In this document: positions 20,107-34,937 of the stretch, one piece after another | Layout of the letters: the number at the start of each line of letters is the position of its first letter | How positions within the stretch are numbered: position 1 is the first letter of the stretch | IMG/VR virus record: IMGVR_UViG_3300050121_000051 | Coordinates: 1 to 41,391 of that record | DNA: 41,391 bases | Reading direction: 5' to 3' (one strand) | Origin: a virus | Translations under genes and position numbers: made by a program | Notes under the pieces: model-generated | What the model saw: the letters and a program-made list of their open reading frames with translations, nothing else | Database searches by the model: none | What the model was told of the DNA's origin: nothing

Positions 20107-20857
20107 TATTACGTCTGAGACAATAACGACTGATGAAAAATGCCCTGATTGCGGCAGACCCTTAGAAATCGGCATACTCAATCTTTTCGGCAAAAAGCAA
20201 GAGTATAAAATAACCTGTCAATGTGTCGTTGATAAGCGAGAGGCTGAGAAGAAAGAGCAGGAGGCCGAAGATCGCCGCCGCTACATATCAGATTTAAGGC
20301 ACGACAGCGGGTTACCCTTGAAGTGGCTAAATGTTACCCTTGAAAGTTTTGAACCCCGCAACGGCACGGAGAGGGCATACAAGGCGTGCTGCAATTACGC
20401 TGAGCAGTTTCCAAGTTTGCAGAGCAGGGGAATAGGCATGTACCTTTTTGGGACAAGCGGAGGCGGCAAATCAAGGCTGGCCGCGTCGGTAGCGAATAAA
20501 ATTGTTGACGGGGGTATTCTGGTGTGCTGGTGGAATGTGACAAGCCTGTATCTTGCAATCCAAAGGACATTCCGCAACGACTACATAGGCCCTGACATTT
20601 TAGAGGATTGCACACGGGCCGGGCTTTTAATCCTTGACGACATGGGAGCTGAAAAGCCGAGCGAGTGGACTATGGCGACTATGTACGACATCATCAACAG
20701 CCGGATTGAAAATGTGCTACCCACAATTATAACCAGTAACCTGACCTTTGAGGAACTCGAAAAGAAAGTTGACAGTAGAGTTATGAGCCGCTTGAGCGAC
20801 AAGGATATTTTCCCGAGGATTGCCAACACAGCGGCTGACTACAGGAGGCAGAAATGA
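20099..20857 (+). CDS. DnaC-like helicase loader ATPase
   Basis: 252 residues from the TTG at 20099, which has GAGGA 8 bases upstream and overlaps the previous stop by 8 bases; in-frame starts at 20075 and 20084 lack a good site. The N-terminus has a Cys cluster (CPDCG and CQC) likely to bind zinc. Walker A is GTSGGGKS (about 118-125 from this start), Walker B LLILDDMGAE, and a sensor region IITSNL. It loads the replicative helicase on the initiator-DNA complex. The next gene starts inside its stop (ATGA). Confidence 0.9.
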   Translation: MDNITSETITTDEKCPDCGRPLEIGILNLFGKKQEYKITCQCVVDKREAEKKEQEAEDRRRYISDLRHDSGLPLKWLNVTLESFEPRNGTERAYKACCNYAEQFPSLQSRGIGMYLFGTSGGGKSRLAASVANKIVDGGILVCWWNVTSLYLAIQRTFRNDYIGPDILEDCTRAGLLILDDMGAEKPSEWTMATMYDIINSRIENVLPTIITSNLTFEELEKKVDSRVMSRLSDKDIFPRIANTAADYRRQK

Positions 20858-21738
20858 AAGTCGGGCTTTGGTCTGATAGCCACAACTTCCCCAATATTGT
20901 GCTTATGAAGTTGTCGGCTTATTACAAGGCGCGCGGAGATCATATTGATTTGCTCAACCACCTGAATACATACGACCTTGTTTATTGTTCAAAAGTATTT
21001 GACTTTACTCCGGATGCAGAAGACGCCGCAATGATCAGGGCGGATAAGATCATCCGAGCCGGCACTGGATACCACAATTACACAGACAATTTGCCCCCTG
21101 AAATTGAACACTTTTACCCTGATTATGGGCTTTACCCGCAATATCATCAAGCATACGGCTATTTGACAAGAGGTTGCCCGAGAGGTTGTCCATTCTGCAT
21201 AGTCGCGCCAAAAGAGGGTAAAAAGAGCGTACATGTAGCTGACCTGAGTGAGTTTTGGCACGGGCAAAAGGAAATAAAATTACTCGATCCTAACCTTTTG
21301 GCTTGTCGAGAGCACGAAATACTTTTAAAACAGCTTGCAAATAGTGGCGCGTGGGTAGACTTCACGCAAGGTTTGGATATTCGAATGCTCACGGATGCGA
21401 ACGTTGACCTCATCGGAAAAATCAAAGTTAAAATGCTTCACTTCGCATGGGACAATCCTGAGGATAATCTAACAAAGCAATTTGAATTTTTCAAAGCTCA
21501 CACGACTTTAGACTGGCGCAAATTGAGAGTTTATGTTCTTGTCAATTTCAGCAGCACACACGATCAAGATTTATACAGGATTTACCGTTTGCGTGAATTT
21601 GGATTTGACCCTTATGTAATGATTTTTGACAAGTTACACGCAAATGAGCAAACAAAGCAACTTGCAAGATGGGTAAATAATAAATTTATTTTCAGAGAGT
21701 GCGAACGGTTTGAAGATTATAACTCAAAGAAAGGATAA
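20854..21738 (+). CDS. Radical SAM enzyme
   Basis: 294 residues. CPRGCPFC at 108-115 is the C-x3-C-x2-C cluster that binds the 4Fe-4S centre cleaving S-adenosylmethionine. Before it lies a segment (about 1-100: VGLWSDSHNFPNIVLMKLSA, ADKIIRAGTGY) that looks like a Rossmann-type half as in B12-type radical SAM proteins, though no cobalamin motif is evident. GLDIRMLTD and LHFAWDN follow. Overlaps the DnaC-like stop and is followed after 3 bases by a deoxyribosyltransferase-like gene. Substrate unknown; a nucleotide, DNA or RNA base is possible. Confidence 0.85.
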   Translation: MKVGLWSDSHNFPNIVLMKLSAYYKARGDHIDLLNHLNTYDLVYCSKVFDFTPDAEDAAMIRADKIIRAGTGYHNYTDNLPPEIEHFYPDYGLYPQYHQAYGYLTRGCPRGCPFCIVAPKEGKKSVHVADLSEFWHGQKEIKLLDPNLLACREHEILLKQLANSGAWVDFTQGLDIRMLTDANVDLIGKIKVKMLHFAWDNPEDNLTKQFEFFKAHTTLDWRKLRVYVLVNFSSTHDQDLYRIYRLREFGFDPYVMIFDKLHANEQTKQLARWVNNKFIFRECERFEDYNSKKG

Positions 21739-29626: not shown

Positions 29627-29917
29627 TATGGGATAATACATACAAGACTATAACAATCGCATAGGTAAGCCATTAATTGATTGTTTACTGACCTTATCTG
29701 ATTTAGACAAAATAAGGATTTTGTATAGTACAGGCACATACACACACGTATTGATTAGGCAGAGTAGCAACACACATCAACGATACCCGATGCCGGATAG
29801 GTCAAAGAGCCAAGGAGCCAAAGGGGGCGGGGGGCATGAGAATTTAGACCCTCCCCCCGTTCTCAGTCAGCTTAATCTTATCCCCCCGTCCACAAATCAT
29901 ATTTCATGAGGTTCGCT
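29627..29917. other. Non-coding gap with crossed G/C hairpins, candidate packaging site
   Basis: 291 bases between terminase genes without a convincing gene. GGGGGG (29829-29834) can pair with CCCCCC (29853-29858), while TGAGAA (29837-29842) pairs with TTCTCA (29860-29865), a crossed arrangement. Phage packaging sites often lie in or near the small terminase gene, so this is a candidate pac region, unproven. A weak open frame at 29721-29909 has no ribosome site or recognisable sequence. Confidence 0.4.
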
Positions 29918-31384
29918 ATGGATAAAATACATGAAGTCTATTTTGATTTAGTCCGCAACAACTACACCGCATACTGTCAATACGTTCATGAGGGTCGGTG
30001 GTTGGTTTCAAAACATCTTAAATACATATGTGACCGCGTACAATCGTTTATAGGGACTGATACTAACCACGCCTATGATATTCTTTTGGTTCAAGTTCCT
30101 CCTCAACACGGGAAGTCCTTGACAATTACGGAGACACTTCCGAGTTTCTACCATGGCCGGTATCCCGAGAAGCGTATTATTATGGCGAGTTACAATGATG
30201 AAACAGCGGAGAGGTTCACACGCCGTAATAAAGAGAAGATCAAAATATATGGCAAGTCTTTATTTGGGATTGAGATAGGAGACATAGACAGGGCGACAGA
30301 ATATGAGATTGCTAACCATCAAGGGCGGCTGATTTCAAGGGGAATCATGGGGGGTATAACTTCAAACCCTGCTGACCTTATTTTAATAGATGACCCTATA
30401 AAAAACAGACAGGAAGCAGACAGTGACACTTTTAGAAACAGGCTTTGGGATGAATGGCAGAACACTTTTAAAACCCGACTCGCTGCCGGTGCAAAGATAA
30501 TTGTTATTATGACGCGGTGGCATGAAGACGATCTCGCGGGGCGAATTATAAAGTATGAAAACCACGTTGAGATCTTAAACTTGCCGTGTGAAGCAGAAGA
30601 GAACGACATTTTAGGGCGTAAAGTTGGTGAAGCGTTGTTCCCCGAAATAGGCAAGGGGAATGAATGGCTCGCGGAGTTTAAAGCAGGGTATCAGACCAAA
30701 GAGGGCAATAGGGCATGGCTGGCGTTGTTTCAGGGCCGTCCTACCGCCGACTCAGGGAATTTGATAAATAGAAACTGGTGGAAGTTCTACGTCGAGGTTC
30801 CTGAAATGATACAGGAAATAATGAGTGTTGACGCTACTTTCAAAGGCAACGACAACAACGACTTTGTTTCTATTCAGGTGTGGGGTAAGAGAAACGCCGA
30901 CATGTATTTGTTGGATAAAGATAAAAGGCACCTTGATTTTCCGCAGACTATGGCGGCGATAAGACAAATGAAGACTCGGCACCCAAATGTCTCGCTTATT
31001 CTTATTGAGGACAAGGCAAACGGTTCAGCGATAATCTCAATGCTCCAGCACGAAATCCCCGGTATAATTCCAATAAATCCCGATGGCGGCAAGGTGGCAA
31101 GGGTCAACGCGGTTTCTCACGTTATAGAATCGGGCAATACATATCTGCCGCAGGACGCGGAGTGGCTAAATGAGTTTATAGAGGAATGCTCAGCGTTCCC
31201 CAACGGAGTGCATGACGATGATGTTGACGCAATGTCGCAGGCACTGAATAGATTTATATATTTTGGAGCCGACATCCCGGAGATAGAACAACCGGACATC
31301 TATGCAGCATTCGGAACTGAAGAAAAGTCAGAGGGTCTATTCAGCGGTACGGTCACGGAAGAATATCTAACAGGAGGATGGTAA
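29918..31384 (+). CDS. terL: Terminase large subunit
   Basis: 488 residues from the ATG at 29918 (TGAGG six bases upstream; an ATG four codons earlier contains that site). The ATPase half has VPPQHGKS (Walker A, about 60-67) and LILIDDPI (Walker B, about 155-162). The nuclease half (RNase H fold) has SVDATFKG, LIEDKANG and HDDDVDAMS with the metal-binding Asp residues. It pumps DNA into the procapsid and cuts it. Full length for the family. Confidence 0.96.
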   Translation: MDKIHEVYFDLVRNNYTAYCQYVHEGRWLVSKHLKYICDRVQSFIGTDTNHAYDILLVQVPPQHGKSLTITETLPSFYHGRYPEKRIIMASYNDETAERFTRRNKEKIKIYGKSLFGIEIGDIDRATEYEIANHQGRLISRGIMGGITSNPADLILIDDPIKNRQEADSDTFRNRLWDEWQNTFKTRLAAGAKIIVIMTRWHEDDLAGRIIKYENHVEILNLPCEAEENDILGRKVGEALFPEIGKGNEWLAEFKAGYQTKEGNRAWLALFQGRPTADSGNLINRNWWKFYVEVPEMIQEIMSVDATFKGNDNNDFVSIQVWGKRNADMYLLDKDKRHLDFPQTMAAIRQMKTRHPNVSLILIEDKANGSAIISMLQHEIPGIIPINPDGGKVARVNAVSHVIESGNTYLPQDAEWLNEFIEECSAFPNGVHDDDVDAMSQALNRFIYFGADIPEIEQPDIYAAFGTEEKSEGLFSGTVTEEYLTGGW

Positions 31385-31691: not shown

Positions 31692-31880
31692 ATGAAACCA
31701 TTTAGCCCATGCGAAATATGCGATCCGTCTGTTAAACCTTTATGTGTGCAGGACTGTCAGAACGTCTGCCCTGAGGTTATACGGCTTAGACATTGCGAAA
31801 ATACCAACTGCTTATATAATTCCGGCCATTGCACAAATAGGGCATATCAAGACATGACGAAATGCAAAGGGTATAAGTAA
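31692..31880 (+). CDS. Small Cys-rich protein
   Basis: 62 residues with AAGGAG before the ATG and about ten Cys: CEICDPS, CVQDCQNVC, HCENTNC, GHC, KC. Probably binds one or two zinc ions. Unknown role. Confidence 0.55.
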   Translation: MKPFSPCEICDPSVKPLCVQDCQNVCPEVIRLRHCENTNCLYNSGHCTNRAYQDMTKCKGYK

Positions 31881-31897
31881 ATACTTAAGGAGTAAAG

Positions 31898-32005
31898 ATG
31901 AAAAAGACTATAACCGAAAAATACAGAGTGGAAATAAAATTTATCTTATCGTTTTTGGCGGCAATTATTACTGTGACAATATTATACGTTCTTGGATTTA
32001 AGTAA
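31898..32005 (+). CDS. 35-residue single-span membrane peptide
   Basis: AAGGAG precedes the ATG. A basic start MKKTITEKYRVEIK leads into one span (FILSFLAAIITVTILYVLG). Ends 5 bases before the tRNA-like element. Unknown. Confidence 0.5.
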   Translation: MKKTITEKYRVEIKFILSFLAAIITVTILYVLGFK

Positions 32006-32009
32006 ATAC

Positions 32010-32109
32010 GCATGTGGTGGTGGAATAGGTAGACACAAATTATAGGCTTTAAATTTAAGCCTAAGAAGAACTGCAAGGTGACATTGCAACAAATCCTTGC
32101 CCACATGCT
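32010..32109 (+). tRNA. tRNA-Leu-like element with abnormal anticodon and T arms
   Basis: GCATGTG (32010-32016) pairs with CACATGC (32102-32108). The D arm GTG-GAATAGGTAGA-CAC is that of a leucine tRNA. The rest departs from the rule: the anticodon arm region is a 7-bp stem TAGGCTT/AAGCCTA with loop TAAATTT lacking the invariant T at position 33, so no anticodon can be assigned. The expected T arm GCAAGG-loop-CCTTGC holds an 18-base insertion-like loop (GTGACATTGC...). No CCA is encoded. At 99-100 bases it is long. It may be decayed, or a tRNA-like part of the large RNA that follows. Confidence 0.45.
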
Positions 32110-32648
32110 TATTTTATATGACCGATGAAATTATCGCTGTGTGAGAAAGTGCTAATTGAGGTCCTCATGGGGTTTTGTGTTGTCCTGTTCTCAATAGGGG
32201 TAACCTGAAAGAAAAACACATTTATTTTTATGGACCAAGGCGGGCTCTAAGTGGCACTTTTAGCACATTATTAAAGAGGGAACAGCCTAAGTAAGCCATT
32301 TATATGGCGGACCGCATTTCCCTTTAGCGGTCGGGATGAAGACCTTAAACACATCCGAATGTCTGCCTGTCGTCTGGCGACTAACAAATTGACGACTTGA
32401 AATAAAAGGAATGTGAAACATTGCACATAAAATAAGCCGAATATGTACGACAAAGTCAGAATCTATTGTCGGTAAGTTTTACGTGGGGAGCAATTGACAT
32501 TTTAACTTTGTCTGTCGATTGCATGTTAAGCACGGTGGGGACTTAACACAAATTAAATATCGAAGTGGCCTGCTCCCGAACACGGAGCCTCCACAATCAA
32601 ACCGCTATATGCGGTAAGTGGGGTATGGCTTAGGCTGTATCCCTTTTT
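32110..32648 (+). ncRNA. Large structured non-coding RNA, ROOL/GOLLD-like candidate
   Basis: About 540 bases without a sensible gene on either strand. Many exact pairings can be read: GTGCTAA (32149) with TTAGCAC (32260); GCCAT/ATGGC (32295-32308); GACCGC/GCGGTC (32310-32332); GGATG/CATCC (32334-32356); GTCGTC/GACGAC (32369-32396); CGACA/TGTCG (32448-32471); a 10-bp hairpin GCAATTGACA/TGTCGATTGC (32490-32522); TGTTAAG/CTTAACA (32524-32548); GCTCC/GGAGC (32572-32588); ACCGC/GCGGT. The loop of the 10-bp hairpin holds ACTTTGTC, which matches GACAAAGT at 32449-32456 over 8 bases, a long-range pseudoknot. Size, tRNAs on both sides and phage setting fit ROOL; class not confirmed. Confidence 0.65.
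32620..32648 (+). terminator. Terminator-like 3' hairpin of the large RNA
   Basis: GGGGTATGGC (32620-32629), loop TTAG, GCTGTATCCC (32634-32643), then TTTTT. With G-U pairs the stem has 10 bp. It would define the 3' end of the RNA, although tRNA-Ile begins only 5 bases later, so processing rather than termination is also possible. Confidence 0.7.
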
Positions 32649-32652
32649 ATTT

Positions 32653-32728
32653 GCCGATGTAGCACAACTGGTAGTGCAATCGCATGATAAGCGATAGGTT
32701 TTAGGTTCAAGCCCTAACTTCGGTACCA
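32653..32728 (+). tRNA. tRNA-Ile (anticodon GAU)
   Basis: Full cloverleaf: acceptor GCCGATG/CTTCGGT (one U-U mismatch and a G-U end), D arm GCAC-AACTGGTA-GTGC, anticodon arm ATCGC-ATGATAA-GCGAT with GAT at 34-36, T arm TTAGG-TTCAAGC-CCTAA, discriminator A and encoded CCA. 76 bases. Phage tRNAs can supplement host supply or replace tRNAs cut by defence systems. Confidence 0.93.
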
Positions 32729-32844
32729 GTGGTTATAAACGCAATCGTCCATGACGTATAAAGGTCTAAAAAGATTGTGGGCAAGTTTGGCAGGGTTCTT
32801 GTCTTTAAGGCAAACTGTCAACCCTTTTGGGTAGAGGAGATTAT
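32729..32844 (+). other. Structured leader before the portal operon, pseudoknot candidate
   Basis: 116 bases without a gene. CAATC/GATTG (32742-32777) makes a stem-loop. AGTTTG (32784-32789) pairs with CAAACT (32811-32816), while AGGGTT (32792-32797) pairs with AACCCT (32820-32825), a crossed pairing as in an H-type pseudoknot. A short TTGTCT/AGGCAA hairpin competes within. It ends 20 bases before the next ATG (site AGAGGAG), so it may control translation or continue the RNA gene cluster. Confidence 0.45.
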
Positions 32845-33111
32845 ATGATTGAAATTCTAATTATCTTAATCGGAATAGCCTGCGGAATGATAACCTGCGT
32901 ATTCGGTATGTGGTGTTTTATACACGGCCAGCGCAACGCCTATCAACTCTACCGCAACGAACTACCCCAGCAACTAAGTAACCCCGTGAGGGCGATCGTA
33001 GAGGGTGTACAGGCCATGGACGCAAAGAAAGACCCAAAAGATTTTGCCGAACAATTAAGCAACCTTATGAATTATAACCCCGAACTTGAAAAATCCGGAG
33101 AGGATGAGTGA
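32845..33111 (+). CDS. Small membrane protein before portal
   Basis: 88 residues from the ATG at 32845 (AGAGGAG upstream). Residues 2-26 form one span (IEILIILIGIACGMITCVFGM); the rest is polar and helical (VRAIVEGVQAMDAKKDPKDF). Overlaps the portal gene GTG. Unknown. Confidence 0.6.
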   Translation: MIEILIILIGIACGMITCVFGMWCFIHGQRNAYQLYRNELPQQLSNPVRAIVEGVQAMDAKKDPKDFAEQLSNLMNYNPELEKSGEDE

Positions 33112-34937
33112 GATTGAAAATAACTGCACCTGATTCAGAAACAATATGGGGACGTTATCAAGCCGGTATGAATTATAAATTCGTACTCAATCTCTATTCC
33201 ACTGTTACGAGGAATGAACGGTTTTATGCTGGAGATCAGTGGAAAGGTTCGGATGCTCCCGATCTTCCAAAACCCACTATTAATTTTATTAAACGTGGGT
33301 GTCAGCAGAAAATATCGGTTTTACTTCAGAATGATGTGGATGTTTTATTTACCGCTCCAAACTGGCCGACTCCCACAGTGACCGATGATGCCGTAGAGCA
33401 ACAGAACGGGGTTAATGTTAAATTAGCGGATGCGTTAAAAAATAAACAACCACTACCTGAAAGCATACTGATGTCTGAAGCTGATGCTCAGAAGTTATCG
33501 GGTATGTTTGAAGTTGACTGGGAACGTCTGAATATGGACTATATGGGTCATAAAGGGCTTTTAGACGCGTGTCTGTCGGGTGATTTTATTCTGTTTAACT
33601 ATTGGGACGATAAAGCAAAAACAGGTCAGACCGCAAAAGGAATGCTAAAAGTTGAAACCGTTGACAATGTGAACTATTATCCCGGCAATCCTAATGAGGT
33701 TGATGCTCAGAAACAACCCTACATAATACTTGCCCGCCGTGAAATGGTGGATGATGTAAAGGCGGAAGCAAAAGAAAACGGAGCGAAACCCGAAGATTTA
33801 GAACAGATTTCACGTGATATGGATTACATGTTTCAGGCGGGGGACAAGGCACATTATGAACTGATGGACAATGCCGATGGTAAAGTTATAACATTGCTTT
33901 ACCTTTGGAAAAATCGTGATACCGGTACGGTATGCGCTAAAAAATGCACAAAAGATGTTGTAATTCATGATGCATGGGATGTAAAAGTAGAACGCTATCC
34001 GATTGCAATAATGAATTGGGAACTTAGAAAAAATTCATGTCACGGCAGGTCGGAAGTCGAGGGACTTATACCTAATCAGGTGTCAATCAACAAAATTATG
34101 GCTATTATCATTCTTTATATGTTATCAAATGGAGCCCCGAAAGTCATTTACAGCCGTTCCGCGGGTATAAGCAAGTGGGACAACTCCATAACCAAACCTA
34201 TTGCGGTAAACGGAGACGTAAACGCGGCGGTCAAATACATGTTGCCTGCGTCAATGGCGGCGGATGCCTACAGTTTGCCCCAGACTTTAATGAATATGAC
34301 CATGCAGATGATGGGCAGCAATGATGTGAATGTCGGACAAGTATCATACAGGAACGCATACGCTCAGTTGCTTGCTAAATTACAACAGGAAGCTCCGGCA
34401 AGGACGGTCAGAAACCGTTACTACAATTTAATCAAGGATTTTGCTTTAAACTGGCTCGACATGACACTTGCATACTTCCAGACTTCACGGTGGGTTGAGG
34501 TGGTTGATGATAAGGGAAACCATTTTGTGACAGACTTTGACCCTGCAAAAATCAGGGACAAGGTATGGAATGTTCATATTGATGTCGGAGAAGCCAAAGA
34601 GTGGACGCAGGATGTTGTACTTGAACAACTCGGGAACGCCTTGCAAAGTGGTGCAGTTGATTTCCAAACATACTTAGAACTTATGCCAAATGATTATTTC
34701 CCAAACAAAGATGAAATTATGGAGAAATTCACACAAAGGCAGCAACAGTCAGCACAAAATCAAGGGCAGAACAAAAAACCTCCCTCAGAGAGTATTAGTT
34801 TCAAAGACGCACCGCCTACAGCACAAGCACAGATGTTACAACAGGCAGGAATACAGGTTCAACCGCAAGATTTACAGCAAATTCAGCAGCCAGCACAACC
34901 GCAGCAACCACAAATACCACAGATGGGAGGTAAATAA
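33108..34937 (+). CDS. Portal protein (P22-like)
   Basis: 609 residues from a GTG overlapping the preceding stop. The start contains YQAGMNYKFVLNLYSTVTRNERFYAGDQW and PKPTINFIKRG, typical of podoviral portal proteins. Further on are CLSGDFILFNYWDD, ERYPIAIMNWE, GRSEVEGLIPNQVSINKIMA and, near the end, a Gln/Pro-rich tail (QQPAQPQQPQIP). Forms the dodecameric ring through which DNA enters and leaves. The P22 type is supported by gene order. Confidence 0.9.
   Translation: MRLKITAPDSETIWGRYQAGMNYKFVLNLYSTVTRNERFYAGDQWKGSDAPDLPKPTINFIKRGCQQKISVLLQNDVDVLFTAPNWPTPTVTDDAVEQQNGVNVKLADALKNKQPLPESILMSEADAQKLSGMFEVDWERLNMDYMGHKGLLDACLSGDFILFNYWDDKAKTGQTAKGMLKVETVDNVNYYPGNPNEVDAQKQPYIILARREMVDDVKAEAKENGAKPEDLEQISRDMDYMFQAGDKAHYELMDNADGKVITLLYLWKNRDTGTVCAKKCTKDVVIHDAWDVKVERYPIAIMNWELRKNSCHGRSEVEGLIPNQVSINKIMAIIILYMLSNGAPKVIYSRSAGISKWDNSITKPIAVNGDVNAAVKYMLPASMAADAYSLPQTLMNMTMQMMGSNDVNVGQVSYRNAYAQLLAKLQQEAPARTVRNRYYNLIKDFALNWLDMTLAYFQTSRWVEVVDDKGNHFVTDFDPAKIRDKVWNVHIDVGEAKEWTQDVVLEQLGNALQSGAVDFQTYLELMPNDYFPNKDEIMEKFTQRQQQSAQNQGQNKKPPSESISFKDAPPTAQAQMLQQAGIQVQPQDLQQIQQPAQPQQPQIPQMGGK

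Follow-up and report, generated by a model that had tools for sequence, protein, structure and literature searches.

A candidate exchangeable structured-RNA cassette with an orphan drum RNA at the terminase/portal junction of a small group of phages

ROOL and GOLLD are large structured phage RNAs of unknown function that lie close to tRNA genes (PMC12286853). Other described systems built around RNA include the type III toxin-antitoxin systems (ToxIN, CptIN and TenpIN), defined by an RNA of tandem repeats, a Rho-independent terminator and a nuclease gene (PMC5086642), pseudo-ToxI of phage PhiTE, a phage RNA that mimics an RNA antitoxin and neutralises ToxN (PMC3475682), and the phage tRNA genes described as counter-defence (PMC10264068, PMC11555353). 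We compared with these systems a non-coding block (positions 32110-32648) of a viral record analysed over its full length of 41.4 kb, referred to below as the window. The best explanation overall, to which we give a probability of about 45%, is that the block belongs to a modular structured-RNA cassette with a drum RNA acting as decoy.

The block is located in a stretch of about 900 bases between the gene for the large terminase subunit (TerL, 29906-31384) and that for portal (33108-34937). Besides the 540 bases of the block itself, this stretch holds a 35-aa ORF, a tRNA-like element, a tRNA-Ile gene and a short leader. The sequence-only reading had described a large structured non-coding RNA region flanked by a tRNA-like element and tRNA-Ile, free of any plausible gene, co-directional with the packaging genes and ending in a terminator-like hairpin, and all of these points were borne out. 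The sole ORF of at least 60 aa that begins within the block measures 60 aa and is on the minus strand, and the block ends in an intrinsic terminator formed by a hairpin (32620-32643) and the U-run TTTTTATTT. The positions reported for the loop ACTTTGTC (32505-32512) and for GACAAAGT (32449-32456) were also correct.

The same reading had proposed that the block is ROOL or a new relative. ROOL, GOLLD or another giant cage-forming RNA would agree with its size, tRNA neighbour, phage origin, strong predicted folding and loop-loop complement. However, a comparison of 31880-32850 with every family of Rfam 15 (cmscan, E<=10) gave no hits beyond tRNA, drum and three snoRNA families matched by chance. 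Its homologues, moreover, are mosaics in which module D and the drum (both described below) may be missing, and the helix that closes the predicted fold is not conserved. ROOL and GOLLD were rejected for lack of a match to their covariance models, and a giant cage RNA of any kind is extremely improbable. Unlike ROOL and GOLLD, the block appears modular and exchangeable rather than one conserved fold. Large structured intergenic RNAs near phage tRNAs are not necessarily ROOL or GOLLD.

With regard to folding, the minimum free energy of 32108-32652 was -166.5, against -139.6 for shuffled sequences (z -4.88, none of 100 shuffles being as good), and control windows of similar length (about 545 nt) from coding sequence gave z-scores of +1.45, +0.12 and -0.06. 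A large share of this excess hangs on a single 21-bp helix, of which the 5' strand (32272-32292, plus strand) pairs with 32628-32649 at a probability of 0.99 and which closes the predicted fold. The segment with both strands (32271-32652) scored -5.55 and the one that excludes the 5' strand (32296-32645) only -2.1. The complement needed for this helix is absent in all eight other loci that carry module E (the conserved 3' domain), and the helix is thus restricted to the window. For both reasons, the structure should not be read as one giant piece, and a single giant fold closed by this helix was rejected, the homologues being mosaics of exchangeable modules. By module, z was -3.5 for the 3' domain (module E), -2.2 for the 145-nt element (module D), -2.1 for the tRNA-like element and -0.1 for the drum.

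The first cargo module is an orphan drum RNA (RF02958) at 32120-32224 on the plus strand, which covers the full model at 48.6 bits, above the gathering cut-off of 43 (E 3e-6). A second phage drum, with 48.7 bits also over the cut-off, turned up independently at the same cassette position in the related locus L126. The two align without gaps, and their differences preserve the drum stems (pairs read by hand). From the window to L126, P1 changes from GACC/GGTC to TGCC/GGCA, i.e. two double changes, and a U-A pair in P2 becomes C-G, one double change, with one mismatch in P2 of the window. By score as well as by stems, 32120-32224 is, on sequence grounds, a member of RF02958. Both phage copies are divergent (48-49 bits, versus 58-100 for most drums linked to the PBECR4 nuclease family discussed below), and the window copy is embedded in a phage cassette, with no terminator or PBECR4 gene directly 3' of it. 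No PBECR4 gene was found in the window with tblastn, and the toxin beside the RNA that is typical of type III systems is thus missing here. A survey of TerL relatives (80 viral loci) yielded no drum in the records tested, and a first drum pattern, which was too strict, gave no match over viral contigs.

The conservation of the drum stems also bears on a 7-bp helix that had been proposed between 32149-32155 and 32260-32266. The two strands do pair exactly, and homologues lend the helix no support: drum stem P2, to which 32149-32155 contributes the 3' strand, has a compensatory change in L126, and that locus lacks the partner at 32260-32266. Since the helix would use the 3' strand of P2, the preservation of the drum stems between the window and L126 removes support from it. 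The putative GGGAGCA/TGCTCCC helix and the putative kissing loop show no variation in the homologues that have both strands.

Relatives of the cassette were collected with a major head protein scan (L117 and L118) and with two DNA patterns derived from conserved parts (L120 and L122-L128); a module E pattern found eight loci. Searches with blastn gave only tRNA and short marginal terminator matches among 50,697 phage records and no match to the block among 72,556 plasmids. The ten loci besides the window have the same ends or modules with differing cargo, and share a plan of border, tRNA-like element, variable cargo and, except in L117 and L120, module E including the terminator. The cassette precedes the small terminase gene TerS in L117, TerL in L118, L122, L123 and L125, distant TerL types in L124, L126 and L128, an unclassified 578-aa gene in L120 and the portal region in the window and L127, and it is on the late-gene strand in all loci. 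All relatives are metagenomic viral contigs, most with neighbouring accession numbers, and recent exchange may therefore lie behind part of the identity described below. The terminase genes at the junction are clearly different among the otherwise related L118, L120, L122-L128 and the window, which indicates that the packaging locus itself is a mosaic. A distant TerL relative (50%) in a Clostridia bin, the only pointer to the host, suggests Clostridia.

At the 5' side, the border AAGTAAATAC (32000-32009, plus strand) is conserved before the tRNA-like element, and most related loci show it as AAGTAAAT(A/T)CG. Together with the next bases it reads GTAAATACGCATG, a near-repeat of the GTAAATCCGCGTG that follows module E in L122 and L127; L082, a relative without the cassette, has one fused copy. 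The tRNA-like element (32010-32108, plus strand) consists of an 8-bp stem (GCATGTGG/CCACATGC), D- and T-arm-like hairpins and a variable interior without anticodon, and was called as a tRNA neither by ARAGORN nor, at E<=10, by Rfam; in L118 the place of the anticodon is taken by a GAAA tetraloop. The element is complete in ten loci (the window, L117, L118, L120 and L123-L128, with the first base of L123 cut off by the contig edge) and evident in its 3' half only in L122. The second pair of the stem is C-G in six of the ten and U-A in the other four, and is thus paired throughout. The boundary motif CATGCTTATTTTA (32104-32116, plus strand; CAT(A/G)(C/T)TTA(T/C)TTTA) occurs once in the 41-kb window. 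In all loci searched this motif (the tail CAT(A/G)CTTATTTTA after hairpins) is confined to the cassette, with two copies in L124 and three in L125.

The cargo varies from locus to locus. L126 holds the drum alone, the window the drum with modules C and D, L118, L120 and L127 modules C and D with other pieces, and L122, L123 and L125 module C with other pieces and without module D; small ORFs are found in L124, L127 and L128. Module C (32365-32405, plus strand) is a 41-nt element with a GTCGTC/GACGAC stem, identical in L118, L120, L122 and L123 and near-identical in L125 and L127. Module D (32406-32551, plus strand) is a 145-nt element with a 10-bp hairpin (32490-32499/32513-32522), whose loop is complementary to the upstream segment (32449-32456/32505-32512); it shows about 94-97% identity among the window, L118, L120 and L127 and is cleanly missing in L122 and L123. 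Both modules are nearly invariant among the loci. A cargo hairpin region (CCCTTTAGCGGTCGGG..., 32321-32358, plus strand) is common to L127 and, partly, to L118.

Several other cargo pieces recur. Between the tRNA-like element and module E, L124 and L128 share a small ORF (MAEEVLSDYFYSNCLFEAIKAKIKNPNVKI...) of unknown family, 93% identical in DNA, which is possibly an anti-defence protein. An RNA piece common to L117 (1640-1810) and L125 (about 125-330 bases before module E) keeps the loop TGACAGAGGCAAT, with a stem altered on both sides (GTGCGC/GCGCAC versus ATGTGT/ACACAT). Outside the cassette proper, L118 (4436-4640) and L122 share a long conserved non-coding stretch, TAGCGTCCTGCTGCT..GCTCACAT, upstream of the cassette in the interval between TerS and the cassette.

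Another conserved part is module E (32552-32646, plus strand), found in nine loci and made up of two covarying hairpins and the intrinsic terminator, the latter present in all nine copies. Hairpin 1 is 100% paired in the nine copies with double changes at four of its five pairs; none of 500 shuffles reached its covariation score, and slid versions paired at 32-62%. Hairpin 2 is kept across several unrelated stem sequences. Compensatory changes thus support RNA structure for the drum stems, the module E 3' hairpin and the tRNA-like stem. A covariance model of module E (R1, with E-values that are rough by design) matched nine phage records, each of them once; its matches in 391 Clostridia genomes were all <=34 bits and were read as ordinary terminators, none being convincing. 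The slot after module E holds a tRNA in five of the nine loci: tRNA-Ile (GAT) in the window (32653-32728, plus strand; ARAGORN, Rfam 62.3 bits), tRNA-Thr in L123 and L124 and tRNA-Asn in L126 and L128; the other loci have a short hairpin or leader there. The slot resembles phage tRNA genes known from counter-defence, from which the 5' tRNA-like element differs in having no usable anticodon.

The position and folding of module E bring in our main rival explanation, namely that it is a transcription attenuator for the downstream tRNA, TerL or portal genes, tuned by the upstream modules. In every locus TerL, the portal region or a tRNA comes immediately after module E, and in nine of nine sequences a CUCCAC/GUGGGG helix and the terminator hairpin overlap at GTGGGG; because these bases are shared, the two helices should be mutually exclusive. 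The CUCCAC/GUGGGG helix is, however, invariant and hence without support from covariation, the cargo is too varied for one sensor, and L082 lacks the whole unit although the same portal operon follows. We consider attenuation rather unlikely; it can operate together with a decoy.

L082 is informative in more respects. Its portal and major head proteins are 90% and 98% identical to those of the window, and the whole cassette is missing, from which we conclude that the cassette is accessory. The junction in L082 (AAGTAAATCCGCGTG) is the product expected of loss between the near-repeats GTAAATACGCATG (5') and GTAAATCCGCGTG (3', as in L122 and L127). Such a loss would also fit a cassette that is mainly a recombination hotspot, its conserved ends providing homology for swaps and its high identity reflecting recent exchange instead of RNA function. 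The boundary motif, confined to the cassette and recurring in L124 and L125, and the differing cargo among close relatives agree with this, as does the contrast between 94% nucleotide identity of L118 and the window over modules C-D-E (32350-32650) and only about 64% in the portal gene. Nevertheless, the stem-preserving changes in module E, the tRNA-like element and the drum indicate selection on RNA structure. As the principal explanation a hotspot is improbable, and it is compatible with our preferred explanation rather than opposed to it.

L082 also speaks against a role in packaging, either as a signal in the DNA (cos or pac) or as an RNA of the phi29 pRNA type. The constant location beside terminase or portal genes and a conservation unusual for intergenic DNA would fit such a role, but a packaging site should be present in close relatives and the cassette is absent from L082. 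In addition, its place relative to the terminase genes is not fixed and ranges from upstream of TerS to downstream of TerL, there is no pRNA match in Rfam, and the U-run terminator and the tRNA slots point to transcripts. A packaging site was set aside as very unlikely. The cassette, with its tRNA-like 5' end, exchangeable RNA modules and covarying 3' terminator domain, seems to represent a phage RNA architecture not described before.

Another finding concerns the association of drum with PBECR4 in bacteria. Of 391 Clostridia genomes, 18 had a drum and 28 a member of the PBECR4 nuclease family; 14 had both, where 1.3 were expected (P 6e-15, genome relatedness being ignored). In 12 of the 391 the two are adjacent, with the drum first and on the same strand; the similarity to PBECR4 begins about 157-179 nt from the first base of the drum, and most (intact) loci have an intrinsic terminator separating the two. 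Among 17 PBECR4 loci without adjacent drum at the first threshold, four have a weaker drum (33.8-43.0 bits) at the same place, and in total a drum precedes 16 of 30 PBECR4 matches (pairs at L088-L092, L094, L095, L100-L103 and L105, weaker drums at L161, L162, L167 and L172). The bacterial loci thus share with type III systems a structured RNA, a terminator and a predicted RNase gene on one strand. They differ in having one drum unit per locus instead of tandem repeats (PMC5086642) and in the nuclease family, PBECR4 (PF18813), the activity of which is predicted; the window, in turn, has no nuclease gene. From their layout they look like a repeat-free type III-like toxin-antitoxin system. We found no paper on PBECR4, on drum function or on such a layout in the literature searched, which does not prove that there is none. 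The regular pairing with PBECR4 turns drum, an Rfam family for which no function was found in the papers that could be searched, into part of a testable RNA-nuclease system.

Orphan drums without PBECR4 are also found in bacteria (L104 and L106-L110), and drum may therefore have another role. L106-L109 (90-95% identical) and L110 are from a single genome (G284), in which a drum-PBECR4 pair (L092) is present as well, and L104 is from another; no other toxin genes were evident by eye behind the orphans. A prophage (L115, 7865-8565) contains a canonical drum (100.7 bits), a terminator and a broken PBECR4-like frame; these lie between the TerL and portal genes, in the opposite orientation. The phage collection gave no match to PBECR4.

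We are highly confident of the cassette, its modularity, the identity of the drum and the drum-PBECR4 linkage taken together, as far as sequence comparison can establish them. In the preferred explanation, a small group of podovirus-like phages would carry a modular structured-RNA cassette at the terminase/portal junction, with fixed ends (the tRNA-like stem at the 5' side, module E and the intrinsic terminator at the 3' side) and exchangeable cargo between. Transcription of the cassette probably accompanies that of the late genes and stops at the module E terminator, and the tRNA-like stem is probably a processing site. Drum would be an RNA antitoxin or regulator of PBECR4, and an orphan phage drum made late would neutralise the host PBECR4 nuclease in the way that pseudo-ToxI neutralises ToxN; the L126 drum, alone between the tRNA-like element and the terminator, would likewise be made late as a decoy. 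In the phage drum as in pseudo-ToxI, a phage carries the likeness of a bacterial antitoxin RNA, a putative one in the case of drum, and lacks the toxin (PMC3475682). The phage drum differs from pseudo-ToxI in being single-copy, structured and of another family, and its decoy activity is inferred. On this analogy, an RNA decoy against host PBECR4 is a tentative assignment, and the phage orphan drum offers an immediate test of counter-defence. The tRNAs and small ORFs nearby may have related roles in counter-defence. A wider reading, which we regard as somewhat doubtful, is an RNA-based anti-defence island, where an array of small structured RNAs, along with small ORFs and tRNAs, would be exchanged between flanking tRNA-like and hairpin elements. 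Drum would then be the antitoxin of an unrecognised repeat-free type III-like PBECR4 system and the phage drum its decoy, and the remaining modules, C and D among them, would act on further systems as decoys or effectors.

Two further features were observed in these phages. A short conserved leader (GGCAAGTTTGGCAG..CAAACTGTCAACCCT..GGGTAGAGGAG or GGCAAGTTTGGCAG..CAAACTGTCAACCCT..GAGGAG) lies before a small gene ahead of portal both in the window (32779-32840, plus strand) and in L082 (4666-4730); a leader of similar form precedes TerL in L118 (5516-5580), and none of the three has a match in Rfam. Elsewhere in the window, 20854-21738 encodes a radical SAM protein (phrog_9298, E 1e-102), adjoining the gene of a DnaC-like helicase loader.
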